From an uncultured Verrucomicrobiota bacterium (GTDB lineage: Bacteria > Verrucomicrobiota > Verrucomicrobiia > Opitutales > Opitutaceae), in contig CAIRBK010000042.1 in assembly GCA_903876795.1 (NCBI GenBank), positions 1-63,099 on the forward strand: 63,099 nt of DNA. The letters run 5' to 3'. The notes beneath the pieces are model-generated. The model was not told the origin of the DNA, did not search any database, and saw only the letters and a program-made list of their open reading frames with translations. Both the position numbers and the translations under genes were made by a program. Below, in pieces: positions 5,010-21,520 of this stretch; the first letter of the stretch is position 1, and each line of letters begins with the position of its first letter.

Positions 5010-5042
5010 TTCACTTTCGATTTATTTAACCTTAACACCCGG
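5010..5042 (+). promoter_or_regulatory. Pho-box-like triple direct repeat before phnG
   Basis: Three 11-bp units in tandem: TTCAC-N6, TTTAT-N6, TTAAC-N6 (unit starts 5010, 5021, 5032). The 11-bp periodicity and the T-T-C-A-C/T-T-A-A-C cores match the known architecture of PhoB boxes. The last unit begins 27 bases before the GTG of phnG, which leaves little or no room for a leader. Confidence 0.75.
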
Positions 5043-5058: not shown

Positions 5059-5490
5059 GTGCAAGCCATCCATCAAGACAACGACAGTGTTCTTACCGAG
5101 TGTGAGCTCCCGGCCCTCAAGCGCCTGGTTGAATCGCTCGAAACCCGTCACCACATCCAGGTGATAAAAAACCCCGGCATCTGCCTGACCATGGTGCGCG
5201 CCGAGGATTCTCTTGAAAAACAGGAGTTCTTTCTCGGCGAAGCCTTGACTACCGAATGCGAGGTCTCCGTGGATGGCCGCCCCGGCTATGGTCTCTGCCT
5301 CGGAGAAGAGCCCATCCGCAGTTACTGCGTAGCGGTTTGCGACGCCTTGCTCCACGGCGAATCCGCCGCACCGGCAGAATTGCTGGCATTCTTGGAAGAA
5401 CACAGGGCACTGCTCATCGCCCGGGATACCGAGGAGTTTAATCACATCCTGCGTTCCCATGTGGATTTCAAACTGATGGAGCAGGACTAG
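5059..5490 (+). CDS. phnG: C-P lyase subunit PhnG
   Basis: A 143-residue PhnG homologue, close to the E. coli length of 150. PhnG is part of the PhnGHIJ core that, with PhnI, attaches a phosphonate to the C1 of ATP ribose with loss of adenine. The conserved core is visible as FFLGEALTTECEVSVDG, followed by GYGLCLGE and the helix AVCDALLHG. GTG at 5059 is the only reasonable start, since PhnG needs the preceding helix. It opens a 13-gene operon that runs to 16449 without a gap larger than about 55 bases. The start lies just downstream of a Pho-box-like triple repeat. Confidence 0.93.
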   Translation: MQAIHQDNDSVLTECELPALKRLVESLETRHHIQVIKNPGICLTMVRAEDSLEKQEFFLGEALTTECEVSVDGRPGYGLCLGEEPIRSYCVAVCDALLHGESAAPAELLAFLEEHRALLIARDTEEFNHILRSHVDFKLMEQD

Positions 5491-5545: not shown

Positions 5546-6154
5546 ATGCTCCGAGAAACAGTATATAACGAGATTTTCGACTCCCAACGCCATTTCCGGA
5601 CCATCCTCGACAGCATGTCCCGGCCCGGAAAGTTGAATCGCTTCGCCCCGATCCCGCTCACCCCTCCCGCCGGTCTTGCCAAACCCGCCGCTTATGTGGG
5701 ACTCGCCCTCCTCAACGCCGATGTTTCCTTCCACGCGGAACTGCTCGGACCTGAGGCCGTTGCTTATCTCCGCGTAAACACCCACGCTCAGGCCGCCGCC
5801 CCCGGACTCGCCGATTTCTTTTTCGTGCGCGGCAGCGATGGCGGTGCCGCAGCGCTCATCGCCGAAGCCAAATTGGGGCTGCCCGCCTATCCCGAAACCG
5901 GGGCAACCTTCGTGTTCCAAGTCTCCCGACTGGGCAAATCATCCAACATTGGCGGACTCCAACTGGAGCTCACCGGGCCGGGGATCGAAACTCGCGAAAT
6001 TATTTTTGTGGAAGGGCTTAACCCCGATTTGATCACCGCGATCAAGACTCGAAATGTGGAGTTTCCTCTTGGTTTGGACGCCATGTTCGTCAGCGAGGAC
6101 GAATCCATTATGTGCCTTCCCCGCACCACTCGCGTGCTCGTGACCAATCTTTGA
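5546..6154 (+). CDS. phnH: C-P lyase subunit PhnH
   Basis: A 202-residue PhnH homologue (E. coli 194). PhnH is a PLP-transferase-fold protein without PLP that sits at the ends of the PhnGHIJ core complex. Typical segments are FRTILDSMSRPGKLNRF near the N-terminus, the central FFFVRGSDGG, and GTTF-like GATFVFQVSRL before the C-terminal strand pair ending in LPRTTRV. The start ATG at 5546 gives full-length alignment. The gene is followed by phnI after 12 bases. No sign of decay. Confidence 0.92.
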   Translation: MLRETVYNEIFDSQRHFRTILDSMSRPGKLNRFAPIPLTPPAGLAKPAAYVGLALLNADVSFHAELLGPEAVAYLRVNTHAQAAAPGLADFFFVRGSDGGAAALIAEAKLGLPAYPETGATFVFQVSRLGKSSNIGGLQLELTGPGIETREIIFVEGLNPDLITAIKTRNVEFPLGLDAMFVSEDESIMCLPRTTRVLVTNL

Positions 6155-6166
6155 CCCGCCTTTACC

Positions 6167-7312
6167 ATGGGATATGTTGCAATCAAAGGTGGCGAAGACG
6201 CCATCGCCAACGCCAACGAGCTGGTGGAGTTTTATCGTATTAAAGCGCGCACCAAGCCGATAGAACTCGCGCAAATACTGGGACAGTTCCGCCTGCTCAT
6301 CGACAAAATCATGGGCGAGGGTTCTCTCTACGCTCCCGAGCACGCGGCTCTTGTCCTTAAACAAAATGAAGGCGACGTTTTCGAGTCGGCCTTTATGTTG
6401 CGCGCCTACCGGGCCACCCTGCAACGTCGCTACTATTCCGAAAAACTGGCCACCCGCGAAATGTTCGTGCGCCGTCGCATCTCCTCGGCTTTTCGAGAAA
6501 TTCCCGGCGGTCAAATTCTCGGCCCAACTCGTGATTATAGTCAGCGTTTGCTCGACGCTCGCCTCGTAACCGAGACCATGGGAGACATCGACGCCTTCCT
6601 CGGTGAGTTTGAAGCCAAACTGGATCGCTCCTCGCTTCACGGCGTGCCCACGCTCTCCAAGGTCATTGATTTACTACAGTCCGAGGGGCTTTTACGGGAA
6701 GTGGAAGCCGATACCAATCGGCGCGTGGTGGATATAACCCGGGAGGCCGTAAAGTTTCCCGCTCCCCGCTCGGCGGCGTTACAGATGCTGGCACGGGCGG
6801 AAACGGGCGGCATCATGTCGCTGGCGTACAGCGCACAACGTGGATTCGGCTCGGCCCACGCCACGGTGGGCGAGCTGCGCGTAGGAGAGGTTCCCGTGCG
6901 TGTACGCGACGCCCGCGGACGCGTACGCTTGATCGGGCGCATCCGGGTCACCGAGGCCGAGATGATCTCCAAGATTAAAACCCAAAAGAAAGACCCCGTG
7001 CCTTATCTGTCATTGGGCTACGGTCTTTGTTTTGGGCAAAACGAAACCAAGGCGATTTCTATGGGCATCCTGGATCGTACGATGCGCTCCGGCGGCGACG
7101 CGCCATGCCAGACCCAGGAGTTTGTACTTTATCATACCGAAGGCATCGAAAGCTACGGTTTCACCAACCACTTGAAACTGCCCCACTACGTCACCTTCCA
7201 ATCGGGTCTAAACAACCTGCGTCAGGCGGTGGAGCGTAAAGAAAAGAACCGCGGAAACCTGGGTTTCGGCAGCAAACCCGCCCCGCAAAAAATCAACCAA
7301 CCCGCTTCCTGA
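6167..7312 (+). CDS. phnI: C-P lyase subunit PhnI (core copy)
   Basis: A 381-residue PhnI (E. coli 354). PhnI is the nucleosidase-like subunit that acts with PhnG, H and L to form ribose-1-phosphonate 5-triphosphate. Conserved blocks include SSAFREIPGGQ, FPAPRSAALQMLARAETGGI, SKIKTQKKDPVPYLSLGYG and QEFVLYHTEG. The C-terminal NHLKLPHYVTF keeps both histidines (about 335 and 340) that correspond to the zinc-binding His328 and His333 of E. coli PhnI. A paralogue at 53121 lacks both. phnJ follows after a single base, so translation is probably coupled. Known role and structure are from the E. coli complex. Confidence 0.94.
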   Translation: MGYVAIKGGEDAIANANELVEFYRIKARTKPIELAQILGQFRLLIDKIMGEGSLYAPEHAALVLKQNEGDVFESAFMLRAYRATLQRRYYSEKLATREMFVRRRISSAFREIPGGQILGPTRDYSQRLLDARLVTETMGDIDAFLGEFEAKLDRSSLHGVPTLSKVIDLLQSEGLLREVEADTNRRVVDITREAVKFPAPRSAALQMLARAETGGIMSLAYSAQRGFGSAHATVGELRVGEVPVRVRDARGRVRLIGRIRVTEAEMISKIKTQKKDPVPYLSLGYGLCFGQNETKAISMGILDRTMRSGGDAPCQTQEFVLYHTEGIESYGFTNHLKLPHYVTFQSGLNNLRQAVERKEKNRGNLGFGSKPAPQKINQPAS

Positions 7313-7313
7313 C

Positions 7314-8201
7314 ATGATCACCGAGTCCAAATTTCAACAAACCTATAACTTCGGCTTTATCGACGAGAGCACGAAAAAGGAAATCCGCCGCAAGCTGCTC
7401 AAGGCCGTGGCCATCCCCGGCTACCAAGTGCCCTACTCGTCGCCCGAGATGCCCATAGCCCGCGGCTGGGGCACCGGCGGCCTGCACGCCACGCTCTCGC
7501 TCATCGGCCCCGAGGATATTTTCAAAATCATCGACCAGGGCAGCGATGCCTCGGTCAACGCGTGCAATCTGCGCGACTTCGTCAAGCGCATGACCAATTG
7601 CCGCACCACCTTCGACACCGCCGAAGCCACCCTCATCCAGACGCGCCATCGCAAGCCCGAGGAGATCCTCACCGACAAACAAATCATCGTTTTCCAGGTG
7701 CCCCAGCCCGAGCCCCTGCGCAGTGTCGAGCGTTACGAGTTCAAAACCCGCCTGATGCACGCCGAGGCCGACTACGCCAAGATGTGGGTTTCGCTTTACG
7801 AAAGCTATGTGAAGTTCGGCGCGATCATGCAGGGTGCCGGCTACCCGGTTCGCGTGAACGGGCGCTACATCATGACGCCTTCGCCCATCCCCCGCTGGGA
7901 CGTGCCCAACCTCTCCATGGCTCCCTGCCTGCACGTCTTCTCCGCCGGTCGCGAAAAACGCCTCCACTGCGTACCTCCTTTCACCAAGGTCGAGCCGCTT
8001 GAGTTCGAGGATGTGAAGTTTCACGTCGAGGACTTCGGCGCCATCACCTGCGCTGCCTCCGGTGGCGACAAGGCCTTCATGGACGAAATCTACGAGTCAG
8101 AGACTTCGCGCAAGTTCGTGATGAACGACTCCAACTTCATGGACAAGGTCCGCTCTGGCACCCGCCCACCCCAGCGTCTCTTCACCAATCCGACCGTTTA
8201 A
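7314..8201 (+). CDS. phnJ: PhnJ homologue lacking the iron-sulfur and thiyl cysteines
   Basis: A 295-residue PhnJ homologue (E. coli 281), uninterrupted and well conserved: KAVAIPGYQVP with the glycyl-radical Gly (residue 36), RGWGTGG, ATLIQTRHR, VNGRYIMTPSPIP and AGREKRLHCVPP. E. coli PhnJ uses Cys241, Cys244 and Cys266 for the [4Fe-4S] cluster and Cys272 for the thiyl radical. The aligned positions here are Cys246, Ser249, Met270 and Met276 (ITCAASGG, then KFVMNDSNFM). Three of four essential cysteines are therefore missing and no other CX2C pair is present (Cys at 84, 96, 205, 219, 246). PhnJ normally cleaves the C-P bond by radical SAM chemistry; that reaction is not expected from this sequence. 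The codons are ordinary and there is no frameshift. Confidence 0.93.
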   Translation: MITESKFQQTYNFGFIDESTKKEIRRKLLKAVAIPGYQVPYSSPEMPIARGWGTGGLHATLSLIGPEDIFKIIDQGSDASVNACNLRDFVKRMTNCRTTFDTAEATLIQTRHRKPEEILTDKQIIVFQVPQPEPLRSVERYEFKTRLMHAEADYAKMWVSLYESYVKFGAIMQGAGYPVRVNGRYIMTPSPIPRWDVPNLSMAPCLHVFSAGREKRLHCVPPFTKVEPLEFEDVKFHVEDFGAITCAASGGDKAFMDEIYESETSRKFVMNDSNFMDKVRSGTRPPQRLFTNPTV

Positions 8202-8222: not shown

Positions 8223-9077
8223 ATGAATTACCAAGACTCTGACAACGGCTGGCTGCTGCGGGTGCGCAATCTCACGAAGATTTACGGCGATCCAATCTCC
8301 AATTCGATCCAATACACCGGTCCGGCCCACGGAACCAACATCTGTCCCGAGACCGACGCCATCGTCGCGTGCGCCGAGATCAACTTCGACCTGTATCCCG
8401 GCGAGGTTCTTGGTGTGGTCGGCGAATCGGGCTCAGGCAAGAGCACCCTTGTACAACTGCTTTACTTCGACCAAATGGCCACCGGAGGCGAAGTACATTT
8501 CAAGGCAATTGATGAGGGCAAAACCAATATAGTAACCCTCTCCAACCAACGTAAACGTCAGGCCCGTTCCAGCCTCATGGGCATGGTTTATCAAAACCCG
8601 CGTGACGGCCTGAACTTCAACTTCTCCGCCGGCGGCAATATCGCCGAAAAACTGCTCATGGCGGGTAATTTCCACGTGGGCCGCATCCGGGAGAGAGCCA
8701 GCTTCCTGCTCGAAAAAACGGAGGTTCCGGTCAAGCGCATGGACAATACACCGGCCACGTTCTCCGGCGGCATGCAACAGCGGGTACAAATCTCCAAGGC
8801 CATAGCCAACAACCCTCCTTTGCTCTTTCTGGACGAAGTCACCAGCGGCCTGGATGTTTCCGTACAAGCAAAAGTGCTCGATCTGATCCGGCACCTCCAA
8901 CGTGAACTCGGGGTGTCCATGATCGTGGTATCCCACGATCTCGCGGTCATCCGCATGCTGACCGATCGCACGCTGGTCATGAAAAACGGCCGTATCGTCG
9001 AGTCCGGCCTCACCGACCAGATCCTGCAAGACCCGCAGCATCCCTACACCCAGCTGCTTGTCAGCAGCCTGCTTTGA
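8223..9077 (+). CDS. phnK: C-P lyase accessory ABC protein PhnK
   Basis: A 284-residue ABC-type ATPase, longer than E. coli PhnK (252). The difference is mostly an insertion of about 25 residues (about 24-50, including TGPAHGTNICPETDAIVACA) before the GEVLGVVGESGSGKST Walker A region. The signature FSGGMQQRVQISKA and the C-terminal ESGLTDQILQDPQHPYTQLL are characteristic of PhnK. Walker B reads LFLDEVTSGLDVSVQ, with Val in place of the usual Pro but the catalytic Glu kept. In E. coli PhnK docks on PhnJ in the core complex and is not a transporter ATPase. Confidence 0.92.
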   Translation: MNYQDSDNGWLLRVRNLTKIYGDPISNSIQYTGPAHGTNICPETDAIVACAEINFDLYPGEVLGVVGESGSGKSTLVQLLYFDQMATGGEVHFKAIDEGKTNIVTLSNQRKRQARSSLMGMVYQNPRDGLNFNFSAGGNIAEKLLMAGNFHVGRIRERASFLLEKTEVPVKRMDNTPATFSGGMQQRVQISKAIANNPPLLFLDEVTSGLDVSVQAKVLDLIRHLQRELGVSMIVVSHDLAVIRMLTDRTLVMKNGRIVESGLTDQILQDPQHPYTQLLVSSLL

Positions 9078-9100
9078 TAAACCGCCGATCCACTCTCACC

Positions 9101-9814
9101 ATGCCCACGCTCCTCAAGGTTCAGAACGTATCGAAGCACTTTCAGCTTCATATCCAAAATAATAAACACATCCCCGCGTTGCACGATGTGTCTTTCGAAA
9201 TGGACCAGGGCGATATTCTCGGTCTCACAGGCAAGTCCGGCTCGGGCAAGAGTTCGCTGATGAAGTGTATCTACCGCACCTACCTGGTGAATTCCGGCAC
9301 CATCCAGCTTCATACTGATTCGGGGGCCGTTGTTGATCTGGCCACCGCCAACGAGCACGAAGTCCTGAAAATTCGTAAAACCGAAATGTTTTACTGCTCG
9401 CAGTTTCTCAGCGTGATCCCTCGCGTGCCGGCGGTGGATGTCGTGGCCGAGTCCCTCACTCGCAAAGGACACGACCACGCCGAGGCCCGCGCTCGCGCCC
9501 GCGACCTGCTCGACCAACTGGGGCTGCCGCAGGAACTCTGGGACGCCTTCCCCGCCACCTTCTCCGGCGGTGAACAACAACGGGTCAATGTCGCCCGGGC
9601 CATCATCGCCGCGCCCCGTTTCTTGCTCATCGACGAGCCCACCGCCTCGCTCGATGCCAAAACCAAGGACGTGGTCATCGACCTCGTGCTCGCCTTGAAG
9701 GCCAGGGGCACCTCCGTGGTTTTGATCACCCACGACCAGCACACCCTGGAACGCATGTCCAGCCGCCGGCTGCACTTGGAGTTCGGCCGCGTGCGTGAGC
9801 TGGCCACCGCTTAA
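9101..9814 (+). CDS. phnL: C-P lyase accessory ABC protein PhnL
   Basis: About 237 residues, a soluble ABC ATPase of the PhnL type. Walker A is GKSGSGKSS, the signature FSGGEQQRVNVARA, and Walker B LLIDEPTASLD. The FYCSQFLSVIPRVPAVDVV segment is typical of PhnL. The ATG at 9101 is preferred over an in-frame start at 9074 that would reach into phnK. PhnL is required for phosphonate transfer to ATP and associates with the PhnK-bound core. It lies 23 bases after phnK and 22 bases before the first phnD. Confidence 0.92.
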   Translation: MPTLLKVQNVSKHFQLHIQNNKHIPALHDVSFEMDQGDILGLTGKSGSGKSSLMKCIYRTYLVNSGTIQLHTDSGAVVDLATANEHEVLKIRKTEMFYCSQFLSVIPRVPAVDVVAESLTRKGHDHAEARARARDLLDQLGLPQELWDAFPATFSGGEQQRVNVARAIIAAPRFLLIDEPTASLDAKTKDVVIDLVLALKARGTSVVLITHDQHTLERMSSRRLHLEFGRVRELATA

Positions 9815-9836
9815 GACCGCGCAGCCCGCACCTTTG

Positions 9837-10796
9837 ATGTTTGTACTGACGATGACCCCCAGGCCTCAGCTGGTTGTGCGCGCCTTGATCATACTCGCGT
9901 TGTCGTGTTTTGCGCTCCTGGGCTTGCCCGGTTGCAAAAAACAGTCGCAGTCCGGTGCGTCCGATGCGCGTCCCTCGATCCTCAGAATAGGCTGGGTCCC
10001 CAACGAGGAGGACGTGGAGAGAAGGGCGCGTTGGGAAGGGCTGCGCGCTTACTTGGAAAGACGCCTGGGCATGCCCGTGGAACTTCTCCAGACGGGCCAA
10101 TATTCGGCCGCCATCGAAGCGATGCGCGCCGAAAAACTGGACGTCTGCGGTCTCGCTCCCTTCGCGTACTTGATCGCGAGCGAGAAGGGCGCCGCCGAGC
10201 CGCTGGTCGCTCCTGGGTTCTCCGATGGTCAACCCAACCGTTACCGCTCCGGGTTCATCGTTCCCAAGGAAAGCCCGATTCGCACCATGGAGGACGTGAA
10301 AGCCCGCGCCCGCGAACTCACCTTGGCGTGGGCCGATCCGGCATCTGCCTCCGGTCACCTGGTGCCTCGCGCTTTTCTGGAGTCCATCGGCATGAACCCG
10401 GAGAAGGACTTCAAACAGGTGATTTTCTCCATGAACCACACCGGCTCCATCATGACGGTCAAAGCCGGCAAAGTGGATATCGCCGCCATCACCACGACTT
10501 CCCTGCGCAACATGATCGAGAAAAAGCGCATTGCCGACGGCGACGTCCGCGTGATCTGGGAATCCGAGCCCATCATGGCTTCGATCATCGCAATGCGCCG
10601 AGACCTTTCTCCCGCCTTCAAGGACGAGCTGCGTGCCGCCTACCTCGCCTTCGCCACCGAAGATCCCTCCGGCTGGAGCGCGCTTGCCCCCATTTATCTC
10701 TCACCCGGAGTGGTCTGGGTCGCCGCGCAAGATTCGGATTTCGAGTCGCTGCGTAAACTAGCTCGCGGCGTGAAGCAGTTGCACCTGCTCAACTAG
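9837..10796 (+). CDS. phnD: Phosphonate-type ABC binding lipoprotein, copy 1
   Basis: About 319 residues. The N-terminus is a lipoprotein signal with lipobox LPGC (Cys33 from the ATG at 9837; an ATG at 9852 is an alternative start). The mature part is a PhnD/PtxB-type periplasmic binding domain, with the strand LRIGWVPNEEDVERRA, the core EAMRAEKLDVCGLAPFAYL and the hinge-region block DPASASGHLVPRAFLESIG. It is the first of three tandem paralogues that share close wording with copy 2, which points to local duplication. Family members bind phosphonates, phosphite, hypophosphite or phosphate esters; the ligand here is not readable. Confidence 0.9.
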   Translation: MFVLTMTPRPQLVVRALIILALSCFALLGLPGCKKQSQSGASDARPSILRIGWVPNEEDVERRARWEGLRAYLERRLGMPVELLQTGQYSAAIEAMRAEKLDVCGLAPFAYLIASEKGAAEPLVAPGFSDGQPNRYRSGFIVPKESPIRTMEDVKARARELTLAWADPASASGHLVPRAFLESIGMNPEKDFKQVIFSMNHTGSIMTVKAGKVDIAAITTTSLRNMIEKKRIADGDVRVIWESEPIMASIIAMRRDLSPAFKDELRAAYLAFATEDPSGWSALAPIYLSPGVVWVAAQDSDFESLRKLARGVKQLHLLN

Positions 10797-10832
10797 GGCC
10801 CGCGCACGTTCCGGTTGTCATTTCCCACTGCC

Positions 10833-11768
10833 ATGACCGCCGCGAAGCCCTTCTTCCTTTTGTTCGTATTTGTGGCGCTGATGTCGCTTGCCGGCTGCGG
10901 AAAACCGTCCGAATCCGCCCAGTCGCCAGCTGCGCCTCGCCCGAAAACTTTGCGCATCGGCTGGGTTCCCAACGATGAAGACGTGGAACGCCGGGTACGT
11001 TTTACTTCCCTCACGAATTACCTCTCCCAACGCCTGAACATAAAGGTCGAGCTCGTCGAAACCGGCACCTACAGCACGGCCATCGAAGCCATGCGCGCAG
11101 GCAAGCTCGACGTCTGCACGCTCGGTCCTTTCGCCTACCTGATCGCGCACGAAAAAATCGGGGCCCAAGCCTTGATCGCTCCCGGCACCCCCGCCGGTGC
11201 GGTCAACACCTACCGATCGATCTTTGTGGTGCCCAAGGACAGCCCTCTCCGCTCCATGGACGACGTGAAGGCCCGCTCCCGCAGCCTCACCCTCGCCTGG
11301 GTGGATCCGGCCTCTGCCTCCGGCCATCTGGTGCCGCGCGCCTATCTCGAATCCATCGGCATAAACCCCGAAACCGATTTTAAGAACACCCTTTTCACCC
11401 TCAGCCATCTGGCCTCCGCGATGACAACCAAGGCCGGCAAAGTTGACCTGGCCGTCATCACCGAAAACACCCGCCGCGACCTCATCGCCAAGGGTCGCCT
11501 GGCCGAGGAGGATCTGCGTGTCCTTTGGACCTCCGCGCCCATCGCCACCAGCGTCACTGCGGTCCGAGGCGATTTATCCGATGCGTTTAGGGAAGAGCTC
11601 CGTGCCGCCTACCTCAGCTTTCGCACCGAAGCGCCCGAGTCATGGAAGGCCTTTGCCCGTTTGTTTCCCGATCCTACGACAATCTGGGTAGCGGCCCGGG
11701 ACAGCGACTACGACGAACTGCGCGCCCTGGCTCGCGGCGTGAAAAACATGGATCTCCTCGCCAAATGA
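10833..11768 (+). CDS. phnD: Phosphonate-type ABC binding lipoprotein, copy 2
   Basis: About 311 residues starting at the ATG at 10833 (an in-frame TTG at 10815 is less likely). Lipobox LAGC, Cys22. The mature sequence closely follows copy 1 (RIGWVPNDEDVERRVRF, EAMRAGKLDVCTLGPFAYL, DPASASGHLVPRAYLESIG), so these two are the most recent duplicates. Its stop codon overlaps the start of copy 3 by four bases (ATGA), which suggests coupled translation. The binding specificity is unknown; differences in the pocket strands could broaden the ligand range of the shared permease. Confidence 0.9.
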   Translation: MTAAKPFFLLFVFVALMSLAGCGKPSESAQSPAAPRPKTLRIGWVPNDEDVERRVRFTSLTNYLSQRLNIKVELVETGTYSTAIEAMRAGKLDVCTLGPFAYLIAHEKIGAQALIAPGTPAGAVNTYRSIFVVPKDSPLRSMDDVKARSRSLTLAWVDPASASGHLVPRAYLESIGINPETDFKNTLFTLSHLASAMTTKAGKVDLAVITENTRRDLIAKGRLAEEDLRVLWTSAPIATSVTAVRGDLSDAFREELRAAYLSFRTEAPESWKAFARLFPDPTTIWVAARDSDYDELRALARGVKNMDLLAK

Positions 11769-12688
11769 AGGTACGCCCCGTCCCGCTGTCTCTTCTCGCC
11801 GGCTTACTGTGCATGGGTGTCCTGGCCCTCGTCGGATGCTCGCCGGCCGCCTCCGAAGCTCCGGCCCCCTTCCGCATCGTGTTCGTGCCTCAAACCGGGA
11901 TGGAGGAACAAAGCGTCGCCGCCTACCGCGCGCTGCAAACCTACCTGGCCCCCCGCCTGGGCCGCCCGGTGGAAATCACCCAGGTCGTCAACGCCAACGC
12001 CGCCATGGAGGGCCTGCGAGCGGGCAAGCTCGACATGAGCAACTTCTCCCCGTGGCCCTATCTGATCGCAGCCGATAAAATCGGGGTTCGGGCCATTCTC
12101 TACACCCACGATCCCGAACAAAAACCGGTCTCGTACTGCGGCGTGTTGGTCACCCCCGCCAACTCGCCTCTGGCCGCGCCGGAGCAGTTGCGCAGCCAGG
12201 CGAAAAATCTGGTTTTCGCCTTTGAAGAACCCGTCTCCACCTCGGGCCATTTTGTGCCGCGCGTTTTTCTCCACTCGCTGGGGATAAAGCCCGAAACCGA
12301 TTTCAAACAGGTCGTCTACGGAATGGACGGCATCGCCAATCTGCTCGCCGCGAAATCCGGCCGGGTGGATGTCGCCGCACTAAGCGACACTTCGCTCGAT
12401 CGTGCCGTTGCCCAGGGCCGCGTCCGTGCCGAGGAGTTTAACGTTCTTTGGCGCTCCGCCCCTTTGCTGAGCACTCTGGTGGCCGTGCGCACCGCGTTGC
12501 CCGCAGATCTGCAAAATCGCGTCGCCGCTCTTCTACAGGCCATGCCCGTAGAAGCCCCGGAATTGTGGGCGATTTTTCGGAAGAATTTTTCAAACCCCGT
12601 GAGCGGTTTTTCCCCCGTGCAGCCCGACACGCTCGACTACTTTCGCGAGGCCATCCGCACCGTTCCCGGCCTGGCCGATCCGTCTTGA
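11765..12688 (+). CDS. phnD: Phosphonate-type ABC binding lipoprotein, copy 3
   Basis: About 307 residues from the ATG at 11765, inside the stop codon of copy 2. Lipobox LVGC, Cys25. It is more diverged than copies 1 and 2: the first strand reads RIVFVPQTGMEEQSVAAY and the core EGLRAGKLDMSNFSPWPYL, while the hinge-region block EPVSTSGHFVPRVFLHSLG is kept. The Glu/Asp-rich ligand segment after the first strand is changed, which would fit a different ligand. It is followed by phnC after 30 bases. Confidence 0.88.
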   Translation: MKVRPVPLSLLAGLLCMGVLALVGCSPAASEAPAPFRIVFVPQTGMEEQSVAAYRALQTYLAPRLGRPVEITQVVNANAAMEGLRAGKLDMSNFSPWPYLIAADKIGVRAILYTHDPEQKPVSYCGVLVTPANSPLAAPEQLRSQAKNLVFAFEEPVSTSGHFVPRVFLHSLGIKPETDFKQVVYGMDGIANLLAAKSGRVDVAALSDTSLDRAVAQGRVRAEEFNVLWRSAPLLSTLVAVRTALPADLQNRVAALLQAMPVEAPELWAIFRKNFSNPVSGFSPVQPDTLDYFREAIRTVPGLADPS

Positions 12689-12718: not shown

Positions 12719-13558
12719 ATGCTTCACGTCGAAAATCTCACCAAAAAACTCCCCGATGGTCGCCTCCTTCTCGACCGTGTAAGCCTCAAGGTTTCGCGCG
12801 GTGAATTCGTCGGCATCCTCGGCGCCAGCGGCGCGGGTAAATCGCTCACCCTGCGCTGCATCCTCGGGCTCACCAAAGCCGACAGTGGCACCGCCACCTT
12901 GCACACCGAAGCCTGCGGCGGAAAATCCTATGACCTGCTCACCTGCAAGGGCCGCGAACAGCGCAACTGCCGCCGCCGCATGGGCGTGATTTTCCAGGGG
13001 TTCAACCTGGTCAAACGGCTGCGCGTGCTCGACAACGTCATGATCGGGCGCCTGGCCCGCATCCACCCGTTGCGTTCCTGGCTCTACGGTTTCACCGACG
13101 CCGAGGCCGCCGAGGCGCTGGAAGCCCTGCGTCGGGTAAAAATGGATATGCACGCCGACCGCATCACCGGCTCGCTCTCCGGCGGCGAGATGCAACGCGT
13201 GGCCATCGCCCGCGCGATTTTTCAAAAACCCGCGATCTACCTGGCCGACGAGCCCATCGCGGCCCTCGACCCCAGCAACTCGCTCGGGATCATGAAACTG
13301 CTGGCGCCGCTGGCGCAGGAAACGCCGGTCGTCGGCGTCTTTCACCAGCCGGAAATGACGGCTCGTTTTTGCACCCGCGTAGTGGCGATCAAGGCTGGTC
13401 GCGTGGTCTACGACGGTGACCCGCGTCTTTCCCATAATCAGCTCCAGGACATCTACGGCGACGAGTTGATGCAGGTCCTGCGCCCCGCGCCCACAACGCC
13501 CGAACCGGCGATTGCCGAATCCTCACGGAGCCTGCCCGTCTTGGCCAACTTCGCCTGA
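12719..13558 (+). CDS. phnC: Phosphonate ABC transporter ATPase PhnC
   Basis: A 279-residue import ATPase of the PhnC family. Walker [10 protein letters not shown], the PhnC-type block GVIFQGFNLVKRLRVLDNVMIGRL, signature LSGGEMQRVAIARA, Walker B IYLADEPIAALDP, and a switch-region His in VVGVFHQPEMT. It has a C-terminal tail of about 30 residues rich in Pro, Ala and Ser beyond the usual domain end. It would energise the two permeases that follow. Only one ATPase gene serves three binding proteins in this operon. Confidence 0.92.
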   Translation: MLHVENLTKKLPDGRLLLDRVSLKVSRGEFVGILGASGAGKSLTLRCILGLTKADSGTATLHTEACGGKSYDLLTCKGREQRNCRRRMGVIFQGFNLVKRLRVLDNVMIGRLARIHPLRSWLYGFTDAEAAEALEALRRVKMDMHADRITGSLSGGEMQRVAIARAIFQKPAIYLADEPIAALDPSNSLGIMKLLAPLAQETPVVGVFHQPEMTARFCTRVVAIKAGRVVYDGDPRLSHNQLQDIYGDELMQVLRPAPTTPEPAIAESSRSLPVLANFA

Positions 13559-13586
13559 TTTTCCGCCGCAAGCGTTCTTACCCGTC

Positions 13587-14435
13587 GTGTCCGTCCCTTC
13601 GCCTTCACCGAGCCCTCAGCCGGTCGCCCCAGCGGCACCGCCCCAACGCCCTACCGTCGTTCCGCGCCGCCTGCGCCGCCCGTTGCTCATCGCCGCGGTG
13701 CTGGTGCCGCTCGTGATCGTTTCGGCCTGGCTGTGTCAGGTGAGATTTTCCGGCCTGTGGCATGACCTCGGGAAGGGCCTCGAAGTCATACGGTTCTTTT
13801 TTCCGCCGGACTGGAGTTCCCTGCGGGAAATGGCCGGTCCGGCCTTGGTCACCGTGTTGCTGGCCGCGTTGGCCACTCCGCTCGGCGTATTGTTGTCCCT
13901 CGGTTTCGGACTCGCCGGCGCGCGCAACATCGCCCCGCCTTGGCTGCGCACGACCGCCCGAGCTCTCATCGGCGTGGAGCGCGCGCTTCCGGAAATCATC
14001 GTGCTCCTTTTGCTGGTCGCGGCGTTGGGCGTGGGTCCGTTTCCGGGCGTGATCGCGCTGGCCATCGGCAGTGTCGGCATGTTGGGCAAGTTATTCGCCG
14101 ACGCGATCGAGGAGATCGACCCCAAGGTCCTCGAATCCGTGTCCTGCGTGGGGGCCACGCGTTGGCAGGTCATCCGCCACGCCGTCCTGCCCGAGGTCAT
14201 GCCGGCGTTTTTGGCCAACTCCATCTTTCGCTTCGAGGTCAACATCCGCGCCTCCGTGCTGCTCGGCGCGGTGGGCGCGGGCGGCATCGGTTTCGAACTC
14301 TCGAAGGCCATGTCGTTACTCGAATATGAACGCGCCATGATGGCCGTGCTCGTCACCTTGCTGCTGGTTTTCGGAGCCGAGCGCGTCTCCGACTGGTTGC
14401 GCGCCAAAGTCATGGACGGAGGTCGCCTCGCATGA
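13587..14435 (+). CDS. phnE: Phosphonate ABC transporter permease PhnE, first
   Basis: About 282 residues from the GTG at 13587; the in-frame start at 13512 would lie inside phnC. A proline-rich cytoplasmic N-terminus (VPSPSPSPQPVAPAAPPQ) precedes five or six membrane helices. The ATPase-coupling EAA loop is visible as ESVSCVGATRWQVIRHAVLP, and the C-terminal GAVGAGGIGFELSKAM is typical of PhnE. Its stop overlaps the start of the second permease (ATGA). The two permeases probably form a heterodimer. Confidence 0.9.
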   Translation: MSVPSPSPSPQPVAPAAPPQRPTVVPRRLRRPLLIAAVLVPLVIVSAWLCQVRFSGLWHDLGKGLEVIRFFFPPDWSSLREMAGPALVTVLLAALATPLGVLLSLGFGLAGARNIAPPWLRTTARALIGVERALPEIIVLLLLVAALGVGPFPGVIALAIGSVGMLGKLFADAIEEIDPKVLESVSCVGATRWQVIRHAVLPEVMPAFLANSIFRFEVNIRASVLLGAVGAGGIGFELSKAMSLLEYERAMMAVLVTLLLVFGAERVSDWLRAKVMDGGRLA

Positions 14436-15274
14436 GCACCCTGACCGCTGCACCTGCTTTGACCCCGGCCGCCTATGTGCCGCCGTCCGCACAGTTTCGC
14501 CGCCGCATGATTTGGCTGGGGTCGTGCGCCCTGTTGATGGTCCTCGGCGGCGTTTATCTGAAGTTCAAGCCGTGGATGCTCTTCACCGATTTCCACCACC
14601 TGGTGCGGCTCGGCGGCGAGATGCTGCCGCCAAACCTGGCGATGCTCTGGCACAAACCCGCGTTGTTCAAAACCATCGGCGAAACGGTCGCCATGTCCTT
14701 CCTCGGCACGCTGCTGGGCGGGGCGGTAGCGTTCGTGCTGGCGTTTTTCGCCTCGCGAAACACCGCGCCGCACCGGTTGCTCCGCGCGTTCACCCGCCTC
14801 GGCTTCGGTCTGGAGCGGGCCACCCCCAATTTTGTCGTCTTGCTGGTTCTGTTCATCGCCTTCGGCTACGGCCCGTTTGCCGCCATGCTCGCCCTCGCCT
14901 TGGGCAGCGTGGGGCTGTTCGGAAAACTCTTCGCCGACGCGATCGAGCAGGCCGACCCCGGCCCGTGCGAATCCGTCGCCAGCGTGGGCGCGACCCGTCT
15001 GCAGGTCATCCGCTACGCCATCATTCCCCAGATTCTGCCCTCCGTGGTGGCCAACAGTTTCTACGCCTTCGACGTCAACCTGCGCGCCGCCATCGCCCTG
15101 GGCGTTTACGGCGGCGGCGGCATCGGCTTCGAGCTGCAGCTGGCGATGAAGGTCCTGCGCTACCCCGACGTGCTGGCGCTCATTCTCTTCATCATCGTGC
15201 TCATCACCGGAATGGAACGCGTATCCGACTTCGTCCGACGCCGGCTGATCCAGAGCTCCGAATCCCTGAAATAA
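14432..15274 (+). CDS. phnE: Phosphonate ABC transporter permease PhnE, second
   Basis: A 280-residue PhnE paralogue with the EAA loop ESVASVGATRLQVIRYAIIP and the C-terminal GVYGGGGIGFELQLAM. It begins four bases before the end of the first permease and is followed by phnM after 11 bases. The tandem pair is common in phosphonate importers with heterodimeric membrane domains. A long reading frame on the same strand runs through this gene in another phase into phnM; that is only an accident of high GC content. Confidence 0.9.
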   Translation: MSTLTAAPALTPAAYVPPSAQFRRRMIWLGSCALLMVLGGVYLKFKPWMLFTDFHHLVRLGGEMLPPNLAMLWHKPALFKTIGETVAMSFLGTLLGGAVAFVLAFFASRNTAPHRLLRAFTRLGFGLERATPNFVVLLVLFIAFGYGPFAAMLALALGSVGLFGKLFADAIEQADPGPCESVASVGATRLQVIRYAIIPQILPSVVANSFYAFDVNLRAAIALGVYGGGGIGFELQLAMKVLRYPDVLALILFIIVLITGMERVSDFVRRRLIQSSESLK

Positions 15275-15285
15275 TTTTTCCCTCC

Positions 15286-16449
15286 ATGAACCGCTCCATC
15301 CTCACCAACGCCCGCATCGTTCTGCCCGATGCCACCATCGCCGGCTCCGTTGTTCTCGAAAACGACCGCATCTCCGAAATACTTCCCGACCGCCATTTCG
15401 CCGAAGGCGTGGATCTCCACGGCCAGTGGCTGATCCCCGGGATTGTCGACCTGCACACCGATTACCTCGAAAAGGAAATCAACCCCCGCCCGAAGACCAA
15501 TTTTCCCCTGCCCATCGCCTTTCACATGATGGACCAGCGTGCCCTCGCCTGCGGCCTCACCACCGTGCTCGGCGGAGTGCGTTTCTCCAACGACCGCGAC
15601 AAGGAATCCACCCTCTGGGGCGGCAACGGCCTGGCTCTCGCCGAGGCTTACGAAGAACTCCGCCGCACCGCGCTGGCCCGCCACTTCCTGCACGTGCGCT
15701 GGGATACCAACTTCGAGCCGGTTGACCACCTGCTCGAAGCCATGGCGAATTTTGAGTGTATCGGGAACATCGTTTACAACGAAAACATCCCCGGCGAACG
15801 CCAGTTCCAGGATCTCGATGAGCTGGCCCGCAAACGCGCCGCGCGTGGGGACAAAACCATCGCCGAGGCCCGCGCCGAACTTGATGAACGCATCCGCATC
15901 GGACGCAGCATCAACAACCGCCCCAAGGTGAAGGCCGCCTTTGCCGGAAAACTCTGCCTCGGCAGCCACGACGACACCACGGTGGAACACGTGATCGAGG
16001 CCCAGGCCATGGGCTGCACCCTCGCCGAAATGCCGACCAGCCTCGTGGCCGCCAAAAAAGCCAAGGAGCTCGGCCTGTCCGTATGCATGGGAGCGCCCAA
16101 CTACCTGCGCGGCGGCTCGCACTGCGGCAACTTGTCTGCCGTGGAAGCTCTGGAGCACGGCCTGGTCGATGCCTTCTGCAGCGACTACCACTTCCCGTCG
16201 CTGCTCGGCACGGTGGTCCTCATGATGTCGCGCGGGCTTTCCGCCGCCAACGCGGTGAAAATGGTCACCTTGAACCCCGCTCGCATCCTCGGCCGTGACG
16301 CCGATTTCGGCAGTATTGAAGTGGGCAAGAAAGCCGACTTGGTCGCATTCCACTTACGCGGAACTTTCCCTTTCGTCTCGGCAACCTGGGTCGATGGCCG
16401 CTTAAAACTCCAGCTTGGCACCGCCCCTGCGGTTCCGGCGCACGTTTGA
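15286..16449 (+). CDS. phnM: PhnM-like amidohydrolase with altered active-site segment
   Basis: A 387-residue amidohydrolase-superfamily protein of the PhnM family, starting at the ATG at 15286. PhnM releases pyrophosphate from ribose-1-phosphonate 5-triphosphate. The first metal motif VDLHTDYLEKEINPRP, the SHDDTT strand, GAPNYLRGGSHCGNLSAVEA and CSDYHFPSLL are present. However, the segment that reads SFMDHTPGQ in canonical PhnM (and in the second copy at 20309) is IVYNENIPGERQF here, so Asp-His-Thr is replaced by Asn-Glu-Asn. It is the last gene of the operon. It may hydrolyse a different intermediate; this is inference. Confidence 0.82.
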   Translation: MNRSILTNARIVLPDATIAGSVVLENDRISEILPDRHFAEGVDLHGQWLIPGIVDLHTDYLEKEINPRPKTNFPLPIAFHMMDQRALACGLTTVLGGVRFSNDRDKESTLWGGNGLALAEAYEELRRTALARHFLHVRWDTNFEPVDHLLEAMANFECIGNIVYNENIPGERQFQDLDELARKRAARGDKTIAEARAELDERIRIGRSINNRPKVKAAFAGKLCLGSHDDTTVEHVIEAQAMGCTLAEMPTSLVAAKKAKELGLSVCMGAPNYLRGGSHCGNLSAVEALEHGLVDAFCSDYHFPSLLGTVVLMMSRGLSAANAVKMVTLNPARILGRDADFGSIEVGKKADLVAFHLRGTFPFVSATWVDGRLKLQLGTAPAVPAHV

Positions 16450-16481: not shown

Positions 16482-17438
16482 TTAGTCAGCTTCGGATTCA
16501 GCCGAGATCCGCACCTTGTTTTGATCAGACAGGGCGCGGATCTCGTCATAAAGACCCTTCGCACACTTCACATATACCAGGTTCTCATCCCTATATTGAG
16601 CCATTATTTTTCTGCTCAATTCTGGTTCTTGTTTATTTAAATTCAATAAAGCGGTTTTCACTTCTTGCTTCAAGGCCTCAGGCAAAGCTGCGCGAATTGC
16701 CAACGGTCCGTTGGGCAAGGGCTCCGATATCCAAAGCACGTTGATAGCGTCAGGCGCGATCTTACCTTTGCGCAATAAACTTTGTAATGTAGTATTGCTC
16801 ACCCCGGCCAAATCAGCTTTTCCCAGCGCCACGTTTAGCACCGCCACGGTGTGGCTGAGTGTATAATCCGTACTCTTAAAGTCTCGCTCTGGTCGCAGGC
16901 CCAAGGTGGCCAGCTTGGCTCGTGGCACAAGATGCCCCGAGTTTGATGCCGGGTCGGTGTAGTTGAATTGTATGCGAGCTGCCTGCGCGGGTACATCTTT
17001 CAGGTTAAGGAATCCCGTGTGCTTTCCAGAAATGAAAGCGCTCTGATACATTCGAGGGCCTTTGGCTTCCTGTCCCGGCACCACGATCGCCTCAGCCGCG
17101 CCACGTTTCTCCGCCAAAACATATGCAAATGGACCGAGACCGATAAGATCAATTTTACCACTGGCCAACGCCTCGATGGCCGGCCCATAGCTCTCGGTCC
17201 GCACCAGCTCCACCTTAATTCCGAGAACTCGGCTAAGATAACCGCCCAATAAACGCGTGGCGCCCTCGCGATCCACCGTGGTCTCCTCGGTTGGCGTATA
17301 CCCGATGCGCAGGATTGCGGGTCGCGCCGACGAATCGTCATTCTCTGGAGGAGCGGTCCGTCGCTCACAGCCGGCATACAAAAGACACATCAGGGCCAAT
17401 ACCGTTGTGGTAAAACCCCGCGTTGTTTCCCTGATCAT
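16482..17438 (-). CDS. phnD: Phosphonate-type ABC binding lipoprotein, copy 4
   Basis: About 318 residues from the ATG at 17438; that ATG overlaps the stop of the upstream methyltransferase (ATGA), which supports this start over 17483. Lipobox YAGC, Cys24. The mature part has the PhnD pattern: RIGYTPTEETTVDREGATRL, EALASGKIDLIGLGPFAYV, DPASNSGHLVPRAKLATLG. It is the last gene of the six-gene phnM2 operon and has no permease beside it, so it probably feeds the phnCEE transporter of the facing operon. Its base composition is lower in GC than its neighbours. Confidence 0.88.
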   Translation of the reverse strand: MIRETTRGFTTTVLALMCLLYAGCERRTAPPENDDSSARPAILRIGYTPTEETTVDREGATRLLGGYLSRVLGIKVELVRTESYGPAIEALASGKIDLIGLGPFAYVLAEKRGAAEAIVVPGQEAKGPRMYQSAFISGKHTGFLNLKDVPAQAARIQFNYTDPASNSGHLVPRAKLATLGLRPERDFKSTDYTLSHTVAVLNVALGKADLAGVSNTTLQSLLRKGKIAPDAINVLWISEPLPNGPLAIRAALPEALKQEVKTALLNLNKQEPELSRKIMAQYRDENLVYVKCAKGLYDEIRALSDQNKVRISAESEAD

Positions 17439-18088
17439 TTCACGCGTCCTTCGATTAACCAGTAATATCCAAGCTGGGTCCATTTCAGCCCCGCCGCTAG
17501 ATCTGCCAAAACCGCCCTAACCTCGGCCTCGTCGGGAAAGTTTTTTAACACTTCGTGTCTTTCACCGTTGGTCAACTGGCGGAGCTGGAAGGTGTTGCCC
17601 TCAGCATCGGTCCGACAAAGCGGGGTGCTGCTGCCGGGCACATAACTGTTGTCCAAGAAGATAAAGGATGCACCGGGATGCAAACGGGCGAAAAAAGCAT
17701 TTAAAAATGCCCTCAACTCCGCGCGTCTGACGTGCGACCACCAAAAGGCCGCGAACCCGGCCGTGACCGGAAAGGGCGCAGGCGGCGGAGCAAAGGCGTC
17801 CGCGTTGGCAAAAACCACTTTTGTACTCCCCTCCAGCCGAGCGCGGGCCAAAATCAATACTTCGTCATTATGGTCCGTGGCAAAAACGCCCGAGCACTGA
17901 GGTTCTATGACCTCCGTCCAGAATCCCGTGCCGCAGGCGACTTCATAGACGGCTTTGCTGCTGAACGCCCCGGCCAGCGCAGTGCGGAGCGTCGCCAAGT
18001 CAGCCTGCCGTTCCGGTTTTTCATAGATACGATCATATTCGCGGGCGCGGCGGGCATAGTAATCGAGCATTTCGGGATCGGCGGGCAT
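17435..18088 (-). CDS. SAM-dependent methyltransferase in the phnM2 operon
   Basis: A 217-residue class I methyltransferase. The SAM-binding motif I is YEVACGTGFWTEVI, motif II starts at ATDHNDEVLILARARL, and motif III corresponds to HPGASFIFLDNSY. It lies 6 bases after the HAD gene and overlaps phnD4 by four bases, so it belongs to a phosphonate operon. The substrate is not known. A role in modifying an intermediate or dealing with a side product is possible but not shown. Confidence 0.82.
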   Translation of the reverse strand: MPADPEMLDYYARRAREYDRIYEKPERQADLATLRTALAGAFSSKAVYEVACGTGFWTEVIEPQCSGVFATDHNDEVLILARARLEGSTKVVFANADAFAPPPAPFPVTAGFAAFWWSHVRRAELRAFLNAFFARLHPGASFIFLDNSYVPGSSTPLCRTDAEGNTFQLRQLTNGERHEVLKNFPDEAEVRAVLADLAAGLKWTQLGYYWLIEGRVK

Positions 18089-19485: not shown

Positions 19486-20280
19486 CTAGAACCGGTAGGT
19501 CGGCAGCTGGGGCAGCGGCCGGAACTCGGCCAGATGATCGTAGGCCCGCAACTCGGCCACGGGCATGGAAAACAACAGGTTTTGCTCAGCCAGACCGCGA
19601 TTCAAGTCGCTCACCACACCAACCAACCGCACCCGTTCGGCTTCGTCCATATTCGCCTCTATATAACCCAGCGTGATATGCCCGATAAACGGCCGGGTGC
19701 GTTTGATGCCCAGAGCGGCGATGTCGGGATGTCCATAAAAAAGATCCCTCAACGCGAGCACGCGATCAAACGCCGCTTTTTCATGAAACACACCAAGCAC
19801 GCCGAGCGCGGTGCCAAATAAACTGATGCCCACCATGCGCATGACCGGCACCTCGCCGGCGTCCGCGGCCAACGAACCCAAAATCGTGGCCACGCGCTCG
19901 GGATATACATCGGCAATCCCGGCCCGCACCACCTGACGGTGATAATTTTCGTCCGAAAGGGTGTTGGCCAAGGTCTGGTGAAAACTGGCCGGCGGCAGGG
20001 GGTAAAACGCATCCCGATTATCAAAACCGGCCATGAGCGCCTGCTGCACCTCGCTCAAGGTTCTGGCCGTGGCGTCGTTGTCGGGCGTACTGTTTAACAC
20101 CGCGAGCACGGCATGGCCCTGATACGGCGTCGGCACCCAAGCGTTGCCTTCGCGGCGAAACTTTCCAGCCGGACCCAGTTTCTGCGCGCGAGCGATCAGG
20201 CCGCGGGGCGAAACCTCGTGCCATTGGCGCTGCTGATAATCGTCAAAGGGGAGCTCAAGCGGGATCTCGGGAGTTTTCAT
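19486..20280 (-). CDS. 2H phosphoesterase (DUF1045-like) of the phosphonate operon
   Basis: A 264-residue protein with two H-x-T-h motifs, FHQTLAN and GHITLGY, the mark of 2H phosphoesterases that open cyclic nucleotide or ribose phosphates. Its place directly after phnM2 matches the DUF1045 family, annotated as phosphonate-metabolism protein in other genomes. C-P lyase yields 5-phosphoribosyl 1,2-cyclic phosphate, which PhnP opens in E. coli. No PhnP-type metallo-beta-lactamase gene is present in the window, so this enzyme is a natural candidate for that step. This is inference from motif and context. Confidence 0.82.
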   Translation of the reverse strand: MKTPEIPLELPFDDYQQRQWHEVSPRGLIARAQKLGPAGKFRREGNAWVPTPYQGHAVLAVLNSTPDNDATARTLSEVQQALMAGFDNRDAFYPLPPASFHQTLANTLSDENYHRQVVRAGIADVYPERVATILGSLAADAGEVPVMRMVGISLFGTALGVLGVFHEKAAFDRVLALRDLFYGHPDIAALGIKRTRPFIGHITLGYIEANMDEAERVRLVGVVSDLNRGLAEQNLLFSMPVAELRAYDHLAEFRPLPQLPTYRF

Positions 20281-20308: not shown

Positions 20309-21520
20309 CTAGGAAGCACCGACTTGTAACTGCGCCACCCGGTCGCGGCCTGCCATATGCACGCGTTCGCCGCGCACAAAGGTCTGAGCCACCACCGGCG
20401 ACTCGCCCCGCAGCTGGACCACGATCAAATCCGCCTCCTTGCCTACTTCAATACTCCCGGTGTCTTGAGCGACTCCTGCGGCGCGGGCGGGCACCAGCGT
20501 GGCGGCGTTCACCGCTTCGTGCAATGGCAACACCCCTTCCCGCGCCAACTTGAACACCGCGTGAATCATGGCCGGCGGGTAATAATCCGAACACAATGCG
20601 TTTACCGCTCCCGCGCGCATCGCTTCCGCCACGTTGAGATTGCCGGTAAGCGAGCCACCGCGAAATACGTTGCTCGCGCCGCCAAAGACTTCGAGCCCGA
20701 GCTCGCGAGCGGTCTCGGCGGATGCCATGTTGATGGGAAATTCGCATATAGTGACCCCCAAGTCATGCATCTGCCGCACTTTTTCCGGGGTGTCGTCATC
20801 ATGCGATGCAATGGGCACCCCGAAGCCCAGGGCCAGATCGGCCACGGACTTCATCTGCTCCAAGGTAAGGCGGGGACGCGCCTGCTTTTCCGACAAAATA
20901 CGCAAGGCCTGCGCCTCGTCGATACCCAGTTTGGACTGACGCTGTATAAACAATTCCCGGGTATATTGGCCCTGCCCGGGGGTATGATCCATGAAAGACA
21001 ATAAATCCACCACCCCATCCTCCAAAAGACCCCGCACCAATCCCAACGCGCCCGGGCCCATGCCCACCACTTCATAACGGGCGTGGATGCGCGTCTTGGC
21101 CAGGGTGTGCCCCGCCGCCATCGCGCAAACTCCATCGACCACTTGTCTGCGCGAGTAGCGCGAACGATTGTTTAACTCCGATTCCTCGTACCCGAAGTGC
21201 AGGGAGTGATAGACCGTCGTGATCCCGCAGGCCACCAGTTTACGGTCGAGTTCCTGCACCGCCACATCGATCGGGAAATCCGCCGAGGGACGCGGAGTGA
21301 TTTCTTTCTCCAACGTATCCGTATGCAGGTCGATCAAGCCCGGCATCACGTAAGCGCCCCGCAAATCGAGCGTTTCATAATCACCGCTAAACAGTCCGCT
21401 CAACTCGGCCGCCTCACCCACCCCGACGATTCTCCCGGCGCTTATCGCGACGGCCGCATTGGCCATGATGCCTGCGGGCGTTATTACGGTGGCTTGAGTC
21501 AGAAGGCGGTCAGGCGACAT
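20309..21520 (-). CDS. phnM: RPnTP hydrolase PhnM (canonical copy)
   Basis: A 403-residue PhnM with all usual motifs: IDLHTDTLEKEITPRP, the active-site segment LSFMDHTPGQGQY, PIASHDDDTPEKV, VFGGASNVFRGGSLTGN and LCSDYYPPAM. PhnM converts alpha-D-ribose 1-phosphonate 5-triphosphate to the 5-phosphate with release of pyrophosphate; it is a metal-dependent amidohydrolase. It leads a six-gene minus-strand operon and has a Pho-box-like triple repeat upstream. The intact motif contrasts with the altered copy at 15286. Confidence 0.94.
   Translation of the reverse strand: MSPDRLLTQATVITPAGIMANAAVAISAGRIVGVGEAAELSGLFSGDYETLDLRGAYVMPGLIDLHTDTLEKEITPRPSADFPIDVAVQELDRKLVACGITTVYHSLHFGYEESELNNRSRYSRRQVVDGVCAMAAGHTLAKTRIHARYEVVGMGPGALGLVRGLLEDGVVDLLSFMDHTPGQGQYTRELFIQRQSKLGIDEAQALRILSEKQARPRLTLEQMKSVADLALGFGVPIASHDDDTPEKVRQMHDLGVTICEFPINMASAETARELGLEVFGGASNVFRGGSLTGNLNVAEAMRAGAVNALCSDYYPPAMIHAVFKLAREGVLPLHEAVNAATLVPARAAGVAQDTGSIEVGKEADLIVVQLRGESPVVAQTFVRGERVHMAGRDRVAQLQVGAS

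Follow-up and report, generated by a model that had tools for sequence, protein, structure and literature searches.

The window analysed here, a stretch of 63,099 nucleotides from an uncultured member of the Opitutaceae, encodes a PhnJ in which three of the four cysteines of the canonical protein are replaced. Judged by its sequence, this Cys-less PhnJ is a member of the PhnJ family and of the C-P lyase complex, but it fails the radical-SAM motif of PhnJ. The form extends beyond the window to Thermus and to plasmids of alphaproteobacteria. In our best reading, which we regard as fairly probable, the Cys-less complex is a functional C-P lyase whose PhnJ holds no iron-sulfur cluster.

In oxic waters, C-P lyase sets methane and phosphate free from phosphonates. 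In E. coli PhnJ, C241, C244 and C266 bind a [4Fe-4S] cluster and C272 is the thiyl residue (restated in passages of PMC7916636, PMC11978286 and PMC9947105), and a section of PMC11978286 takes the four cysteines as a sign of PhnJ function. The canonical protein, with its motif CX2CX21CX5C, has been grouped with radical-SAM enzymes of unusual motif such as ThiC (in a part of PMC4389238); in contrast to these enzymes, Cys-less PhnJ misses three of the four motif cysteines. The mechanism of C-P lyase is disputed, because the glycyl-radical and cysteine sites lie about 30 Å apart in its structures (excerpts of PMC9947105 and PMC7916636). A natural lineage that lacks three of the four cysteines and keeps the remainder offers a direct way to test what the mechanism requires.

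The Cys-less PhnJ and its distribution

The window phnJ (7314 to 8201, forward strand) is an intact open frame of 295 amino acids. The protein can be aligned over the entire length with E. coli PhnJ (PDB 7z15_D; E 4.1e-91) and is a full-length match to PF06007 with 405.5 bits (cut-off 25), which places it in the PhnJ family; in NCBIfam, no model matches PhnJ, that of E. coli included. E. coli PhnJ (L061) has exactly four cysteines in total, C241, C244, C266 and C272. Codons 36, 246, 249, 270 and 276 of the window gene read GGC, TGC, TCC, ATG and ATG, and the encoded G36, C246, S249, M270 and M276 stand in the alignment columns of E. coli Gly32, C241, C244, C266 and C272. The sequence-only reading had claimed exactly these replacements, and both codons and alignment bear it out: the canonical motif is broken, with C241 alone retained. 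Its claim that the radical glycine and the other PhnJ motifs are kept proved correct as well. G36 occupies the Gly32 position, which is invariant across all 65 aligned rows, and the residues that a part of PMC9947105 places at the bound PRcP (R107, H108, Q124 and the loop 47-50) are invariant in 39 of 39 Cys-less PhnJ. An AlphaFold model of the protein (mean pLDDT 61.9, poor in the C-terminal domain) was used for a fold search, which confirms PhnJ only.

The alignment goes back to 78 PhnJ stretches, 66 of them distinct, from a genome-contig scan with the window PhnJ, from genome searches and from plasmid and phage records. One sequence (L030) was dropped because a break in its frame precedes the third cysteine column; the first two cysteines are present. 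Two broken copies (L043 and L055, see below) were left out of the counts. Among the 65 distinct sequences, 39 are Cys-less, 26 have all four cysteines and none is intermediate. The contig scan, whose patterns favour close relatives of the window PhnJ and which is no census, contributed 39 loci, 29 of them Cys-less. Outside the 65 rows, loci L083 to L091 comprise three further Cys-less forms (L086, L087, L088) and one canonical (L091), the remainder repeating earlier genomes. The Cys-less pattern keeps C241 and replaces C244 by S or T, C266 by I, V, L or M, and C272 by L, M, G or A; as read from the alignment, the three cysteines are replaced together as a unit. In the 45 C-terminal columns, exactly C241, C244, C266, D268 and C272 are invariant among the canonical rows, and only C241 and D268 are invariant in the C-terminal domain of all 65 rows.

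Opitutales and Bacteroidota, the latter with the isolates Mucilaginibacter polytrichastri, M. endophyticus and Puia dinghuensis, account for 31 of the Cys-less rows. Six come from alphaproteobacterial plasmids (Haematobacter, Nitratireductor, Sinorhizobium B11, Rhizobium AB2/73, Mesorhizobium AR07 and Microvirga VF16) and two from Thermus thermophilus, one of them identical to the PhnJ of plasmid pVV8 of strain HB8. Every PhnJ found in the Opitutales, the order of the window, was Cys-less (4 of 56 genomes, 2 among 288 and 4 of 223, in overlapping sets); the 288-genome search gave five PhnJ matches, and the other three, from the same phylum, were canonical. The same holds for every PhnJ found in Bacteroidota (1 of 395, 3 of 254 and 5 of 261 genomes, again overlapping). 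PhnJ of any kind is rare in the Opitutales and Bacteroidota searched. Whole clades whose members lack the cysteines and keep phnGHIKL, for which the sequence-only reading had suggested a search, are present in the 65-row alignment. A search by title and abstract in the open-licence PMC literature found no description of a PhnJ without these cysteines.

Two records deserve a remark. L016 (genome G344) is titled Beijerinckiaceae; the genome falls in the Puia family, its PhnJ groups with Bacteroidota and the record is probably mislabelled. In the class of G344, PhnJ was found in 1 of 345 genomes searched. L068 (OQ572413.1), titled Pseudomonas phage Y12 (UNVERIFIED), carries a canonical phn operon that is perhaps host DNA; the viral contigs scanned yielded no PhnJ relative.

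Purifying selection acts on the Cys-less PhnJ. Pairwise comparison of the window, L002 and L041 gave dN/dS values of 0.062, 0.097 and 0.102, and the range over the 10 of 12 pairs that were measurable, two being saturated, was 0.010-0.156. Some copies do show decay: L043 (G037) has one in-frame TAG in its Cys-less phnJ, and L055 (G349 contig 25) is an additional Cys-less phnJ with a frameshift, which lies about 19 kb away from the intact copy. As an explanation of the pattern itself, however, a sequencing error, a pseudogene or recent decay has a negligible chance of being right, because the pattern is common to 39 of 65 distinct PhnJ, all 39 of them open and spread over four phyla, and dN/dS is low. 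Neither an error that hides the cysteines nor a sporadic recent loss, the two events named beforehand as fatal to the claim, was therefore borne out, and the clade-wide pattern and the tree also speak against the second.

A tree of the PhnJ body, built without the cysteine region, needs two changes; a single Cys-less clade appears in 12% of 200 bootstrap trees and has an AU p of 0.485. The tree of PhnI+J+K+L, for which 57 of the 65 loci were used, joins Thermus with the alphaproteobacterial set (SH-aLRT 100), apart from Opitutales/Bacteroidota (100), and does not reject one Cys-less clade (AU p 0.089). The trees thus fit one or two origins: either a single loss of the three cysteines, or two losses that took the same course. 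With L066 and L069 as the root, the E. coli clade lies farther from the Cys-less forms than does the canonical PhnJ of Marinobacter, Methylibium and Thiothrix plasmids, which differs from these forms in having all four cysteines; it is probably the second of the two major clades mentioned in a passage of PMC11978286. L066 and L069, from Klebsiella and Martelella plasmids, are canonical phnGHIJKL sets that have diverged very far; an iron-type ABC transporter lies next to them, and no phnM is annotated in these stretches.

The gene set of the window and the end of the pathway

In the window, phnJ is the fourth of 13 co-directional genes on the forward strand in the order phnG-H-I-J-K-L-D-D-D-C-E-E-M. 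Upstream of it lie phnG (5059 to 5490; PF06754 81 bits, TIGR03293 92.8 bits with a cut-off of 89), phnH (5546 to 6154; PF05845 136 bits, TIGR03292 129 bits) and phnI (6167 to 7312; PF05861 423 bits). It is followed by phnK (8223 to 9077), whose best match, TIGR02323 with 260 bits, stays below the cut-off of 302.85, and by phnL (9074 to 9814; TIGR02324 268 bits, cut-off 256). By blastp, the transport genes are three for PhnD-type binding proteins (9795 to 10796, matched to E. coli PhnD; 10815 to 11768; 11765 to 12688, start inferred), phnC (12719 to 13558; also PF00005) and two phnE (13512 to 14435, with the true start probably further in, and 14432 to 15274). After them sits phnM (15286 to 16449; blastp against E. 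coli PhnM, start inferred), which completes the C-P lyase set of phnG, H, I, J, K, L and M in one row. Profile and blastp matches, all in one direction, hence confirm the intact 13-gene set with phnGHIKL and transport genes that had been described from the sequence. A fourth PhnD-type binding protein is encoded at 16482-17483; four such proteins at one phn locus suggest several phosphorus substrates. Upstream of phnG, at 5012-5038, a paired TTCAT/TTAAC-like stretch is a possible Pho box, and by eye it recurs before phnG in L002, L003, L004 and L005.

The zinc site of PhnI and the PRcP pocket of PhnJ are retained. PhnI keeps the zinc histidines (E. coli H328 and H333; HLKLPH in the window) within an HxKLPH motif in 39 of 39 Cys-less rows, and PhnJ keeps its pocket of R107, H108 and Q124. 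Near the histidines, Tyr is found at row position 326 in 37 of 39 Cys-less rows, and Glu replaces Asp at row position 329 in 36 of 39. Compared with the E. coli enzyme (PDB 4xb6, 7z15-7z19), Cys-less PhnJ is alike in fold, length, PRcP contacts, Gly32, C241 and D268, at about 51% identity, and the partners PhnG, H, I, K and L are present. It differs in lacking C244, C266 and C272, in a 2H-like gene in place of a PhnP over the cut-off, and, in the group of the window, in cysteines gained by PhnG.

Further downstream, the window encodes the ribose 1,5-bisphosphokinase PhnN (23254 to 23817, forward strand) with 226.9 bits to TIGR02322 (cut-off 156). PhnN exceeds the cut-off in 26 of 33 Cys-less genome handles, two of which (G024 and G335) give the same PhnN places and may be one genome; among the seven without it, one is just below. 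The idea that Cys-less operons lack phnN was therefore dropped as wrong. PhnP passed its TIGR03307 cut-off in none of the 33 Cys-less handles as against one of three canonical Verrucomicrobiota, so another esterase must serve. Weaker PhnP matches, among which a distant substitute may be present, occurred in all 36 handles and also in 10 of 14 control genomes besides E. coli. The candidate replacement is a 2H-phosphoesterase-like protein encoded on the reverse strand (19486 to 20280; LigT 20.8 bits, below the cut-off of 23.3), which has relatives in 30 of the 33 Cys-less handles and in none of the three canonical ones. 2H enzymes open ribose 1,2-cyclic phosphates. In Mesorhizobium AR07, a DUF1045 gene, which we take to encode an esterase of the 2H type, and then phnN come after the Cys-less phnGHIJKLM in one row. 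DUF1045 is not a mark of the Cys-less form, because in S. chiapasense it follows a canonical phn set. Together, PhnN and the 2H-like gene suggest the usual route from PRcP to PRPP, with PRcP as the product of the Cys-less complex.

Between the 13-gene row and phnN lie a second PhnM paralogue (20309 to 21520, reverse strand; NF011990 389.8 bits, cut-off 233) and, near phnN on the forward strand, genes for an EEP-family phosphatase (21652-22443) and a PdxK-like kinase (22453-23208). A methyltransferase, a HAD protein and a phosphonate-type hexapeptide transferase (TIGR03308) are also encoded beyond the row. Relatives of the EEP-type phosphatase stand beside 10 of 33 Cys-less clusters and relatives of the kinase beside six, the window counted in both.

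Further PhnJ copies and cysteines of the complex

The Cys-less PhnJ could work with a canonical PhnJ encoded elsewhere in the genome, an option raised by the sequence-only reading, and Microvirga VF16 does carry both kinds on separate plasmids (the canonical one on pMVF16-2). However, the genome of the window, which is 98% complete, has one PhnJ. Among 28 further Cys-less genomes (L010 not included), 27 have one PhnJ place and the 28th has only a broken second Cys-less copy. A second canonical PhnJ is thus rejected for the window's own genome and for 27 of its 28 relatives, and a general dependence of the Cys-less PhnJ on a canonical partner is highly improbable. On the other Microvirga plasmid, pMVF16-1 (NZ_CP069355.1), tblastn marks nine PhnJ places.

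A cluster might instead be bound through other cysteines. For PhnJ itself, this was rejected for the lineage as a whole: C84, C96, C205 and C219 of the window protein are absent from other members, and five of the 39 Cys-less PhnJ have a single cysteine in the aligned core. Full-length reading bears out the one-cysteine PhnJ for L058, L059/HB8, L074 and L076, and reading over the matched part does so for L073. In Thermus HB8, PhnG, PhnH and PhnI have no cysteine, PhnJ has one (position 243, corresponding to C241), and PhnK and PhnL have one each. The PhnGHIJ core contains one cysteine per protomer and therefore leaves no possibility of an ordinary cysteine-ligated cluster there, although Thermus proteins may be poor in cysteine for other reasons. 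Taken together, the complexes of Thermus and the alphaproteobacteria offer hardly any place for a cluster.

The group of the window is a different matter. Opitutales/Bacteroidota PhnG have cysteine at the columns of window C15, C42, C67, C80 and C90 in 23, 19, 23, 24 and 23 of 24 rows, as against 2, 0, 11, 0 and 0 of 23 canonical rows, none of six alphaproteobacterial rows and 0, 0, 1, 0 and 0 of two Thermus rows (PhnG was located in 32 of 39 Cys-less and 23 of 26 canonical loci; PhnM was left out of the comparison). The group also gained cysteines at PhnJ C84 (31 of 31), at one PhnI column (27 of 31) and at one PhnL column (29 of 31). No cysteine column gained in another subunit was found to be common to all three Cys-less groups. 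The five PhnG cysteines are a possible new metal site, and they speak against calling the Opitutales/Bacteroidota group cluster-free: there, PhnG may have taken over the metal site or cluster of PhnJ, with cluster-based chemistry kept in another subunit. The four or five nearly invariant, group-specific cysteines favour such a move. We nevertheless rate it as quite unlikely, since the PhnG of a Muricauda MAG (L019) has just two of the five and some others are one short, the alphaproteobacterial and Thermus complexes have no such site, and the cysteines may be unrelated to metal binding. Binding of a cluster through other cysteines, which would have undone the claim of a cluster-free complex, is accordingly excluded by composition for the Thermus core and still live for the group of the window.

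Probable cleavage of the C-P bond by the Cys-less complex

We infer that the Cys-less complex would still make 5-phosphoribosyl-1-phosphonate and would still break its C-P bond at the PhnI-PhnJ zinc pocket. The product would still be the 1,2-cyclic phosphate, which an esterase of the 2H/DUF1045 type would open before PhnN leads to PRPP. No [4Fe-4S] cluster on PhnJ would take part in breaking the bond; C241, which is retained, may carry the thiol chemistry together with D268, and any radical at Gly32 would be started from outside PhnJ or would not be needed. We favour cleavage since most of the remaining pathway is retained and the Thermus stretch that was read shows no obvious second C-P enzyme. 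A role in activating the substrate for a different lyase is less likely, given that genes for the step from PRcP to PRPP are for the most part present. Cleavage without a PhnJ-bound cluster has, in our estimate, a better than even chance of being correct, while C241 as the working thiol is a tentative assignment. Against the cluster-free reading stands the accepted E. coli mechanism, which gives C272 and the cluster essential roles, and the pathway as drawn relies for its esterase on a LigT match below the threshold.

The complex could also perform the transfer and hydrolysis steps only, or take another substrate, with no C-P cleavage of its own. The residues assigned to cleavage are indeed absent, and genes for other enzymes (methyltransferase, HAD, EEP phosphatase, PdxK-like kinase) lie nearby. 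On the other hand, PhnN in 26 and the 2H-like gene in 30 of 33 handles point to PRcP as product, and Thermus HB8 has an annotated phnCDE-GHIJKLM with no obvious second C-P enzyme within the 20.8 kb read, which makes this alternative unlikely. Similarly doubtful is a complex that keeps radical chemistry, in which a distinct radical-SAM activase cleaves SAM in trans, as happens for pyruvate formate-lyase, with Gly32 and C241 as the glycyl/thiyl pair. Both residues are invariant in 65 of 65 rows, as such a pair would be, but nothing activase-like was seen by eye among the 25 most shared unlabelled neighbour groups of 33 Cys-less loci, many of which have short flanks, and none is annotated in the Thermus HB8 stretch read.

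A further alternative concerns the canonical enzyme. Its four-cysteine site may be mainly structural or redox-sensing, comparable to a zinc ribbon, so that C-P cleavage never depended on it and the Cys-less lineage swapped the metal for a hydrophobic core. Zinc ribbons with metal-free sister forms, as in pairs of ribosomal proteins, show such a joint loss of knuckle cysteines with hydrophobic replacement. The replacements in PhnJ (I, V, L or M, and mostly L or M) are typical of a packed core, the cysteine site is about 30 Å from Gly32 with PRcP at the PhnI zinc site (according to a section of PMC9947105), and a structure described in part of PMC11978286 shows zinc coordinated by the cysteines. 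Unlike the metal-free zinc ribbons, however, Cys-less PhnJ keeps one cysteine and one aspartate invariant, although loss of a metal site would free both C241 and D268, and the published chemistry of E. coli PhnJ depends on SAM and Gly32. We regard a purely structural or sensing site as improbable. The sequences are compatible with each of these possibilities: a C241 thiol with an outside radical, cysteines without any catalytic role from the start, relocation of the site to PhnG in one group, and no C-P cleavage.

Returning to cleavage without a cluster on PhnJ, the interpretation given from the sequence alone is supported in part: C241 is the only one left of the published cluster and thiyl cysteines, the rest of PhnJ is kept and the pattern is clade-wide. 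What had escaped it is the invariance of C241 and the presence of the form in Thermus and on alphaproteobacterial plasmids. A more general reading goes further than the Cys-less complex: the C-P bond might be breakable without an Fe-S cluster or Cys272 on PhnJ, C244, C266 and C272 would be a separable accessory that was lost jointly one or two times, and the universal chemistry would lie in C241, D268, Gly32 and the PhnI zinc pocket. To this we give somewhat less than even confidence. If cleavage does proceed without the PhnJ cluster and Cys272, the published assignment of ligands and thiyl cysteine needs revision. The protein of Thermus HB8 is annotated as C-P-lyase PhnJ, and gene catalogues do not separate the two forms; surveys of methane potential may therefore count an enzyme of uncertain chemistry. 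Under the same reading, the core complex of Thermus thermophilus HB8, with its single cysteine per protomer, would provide a heat-stable system.
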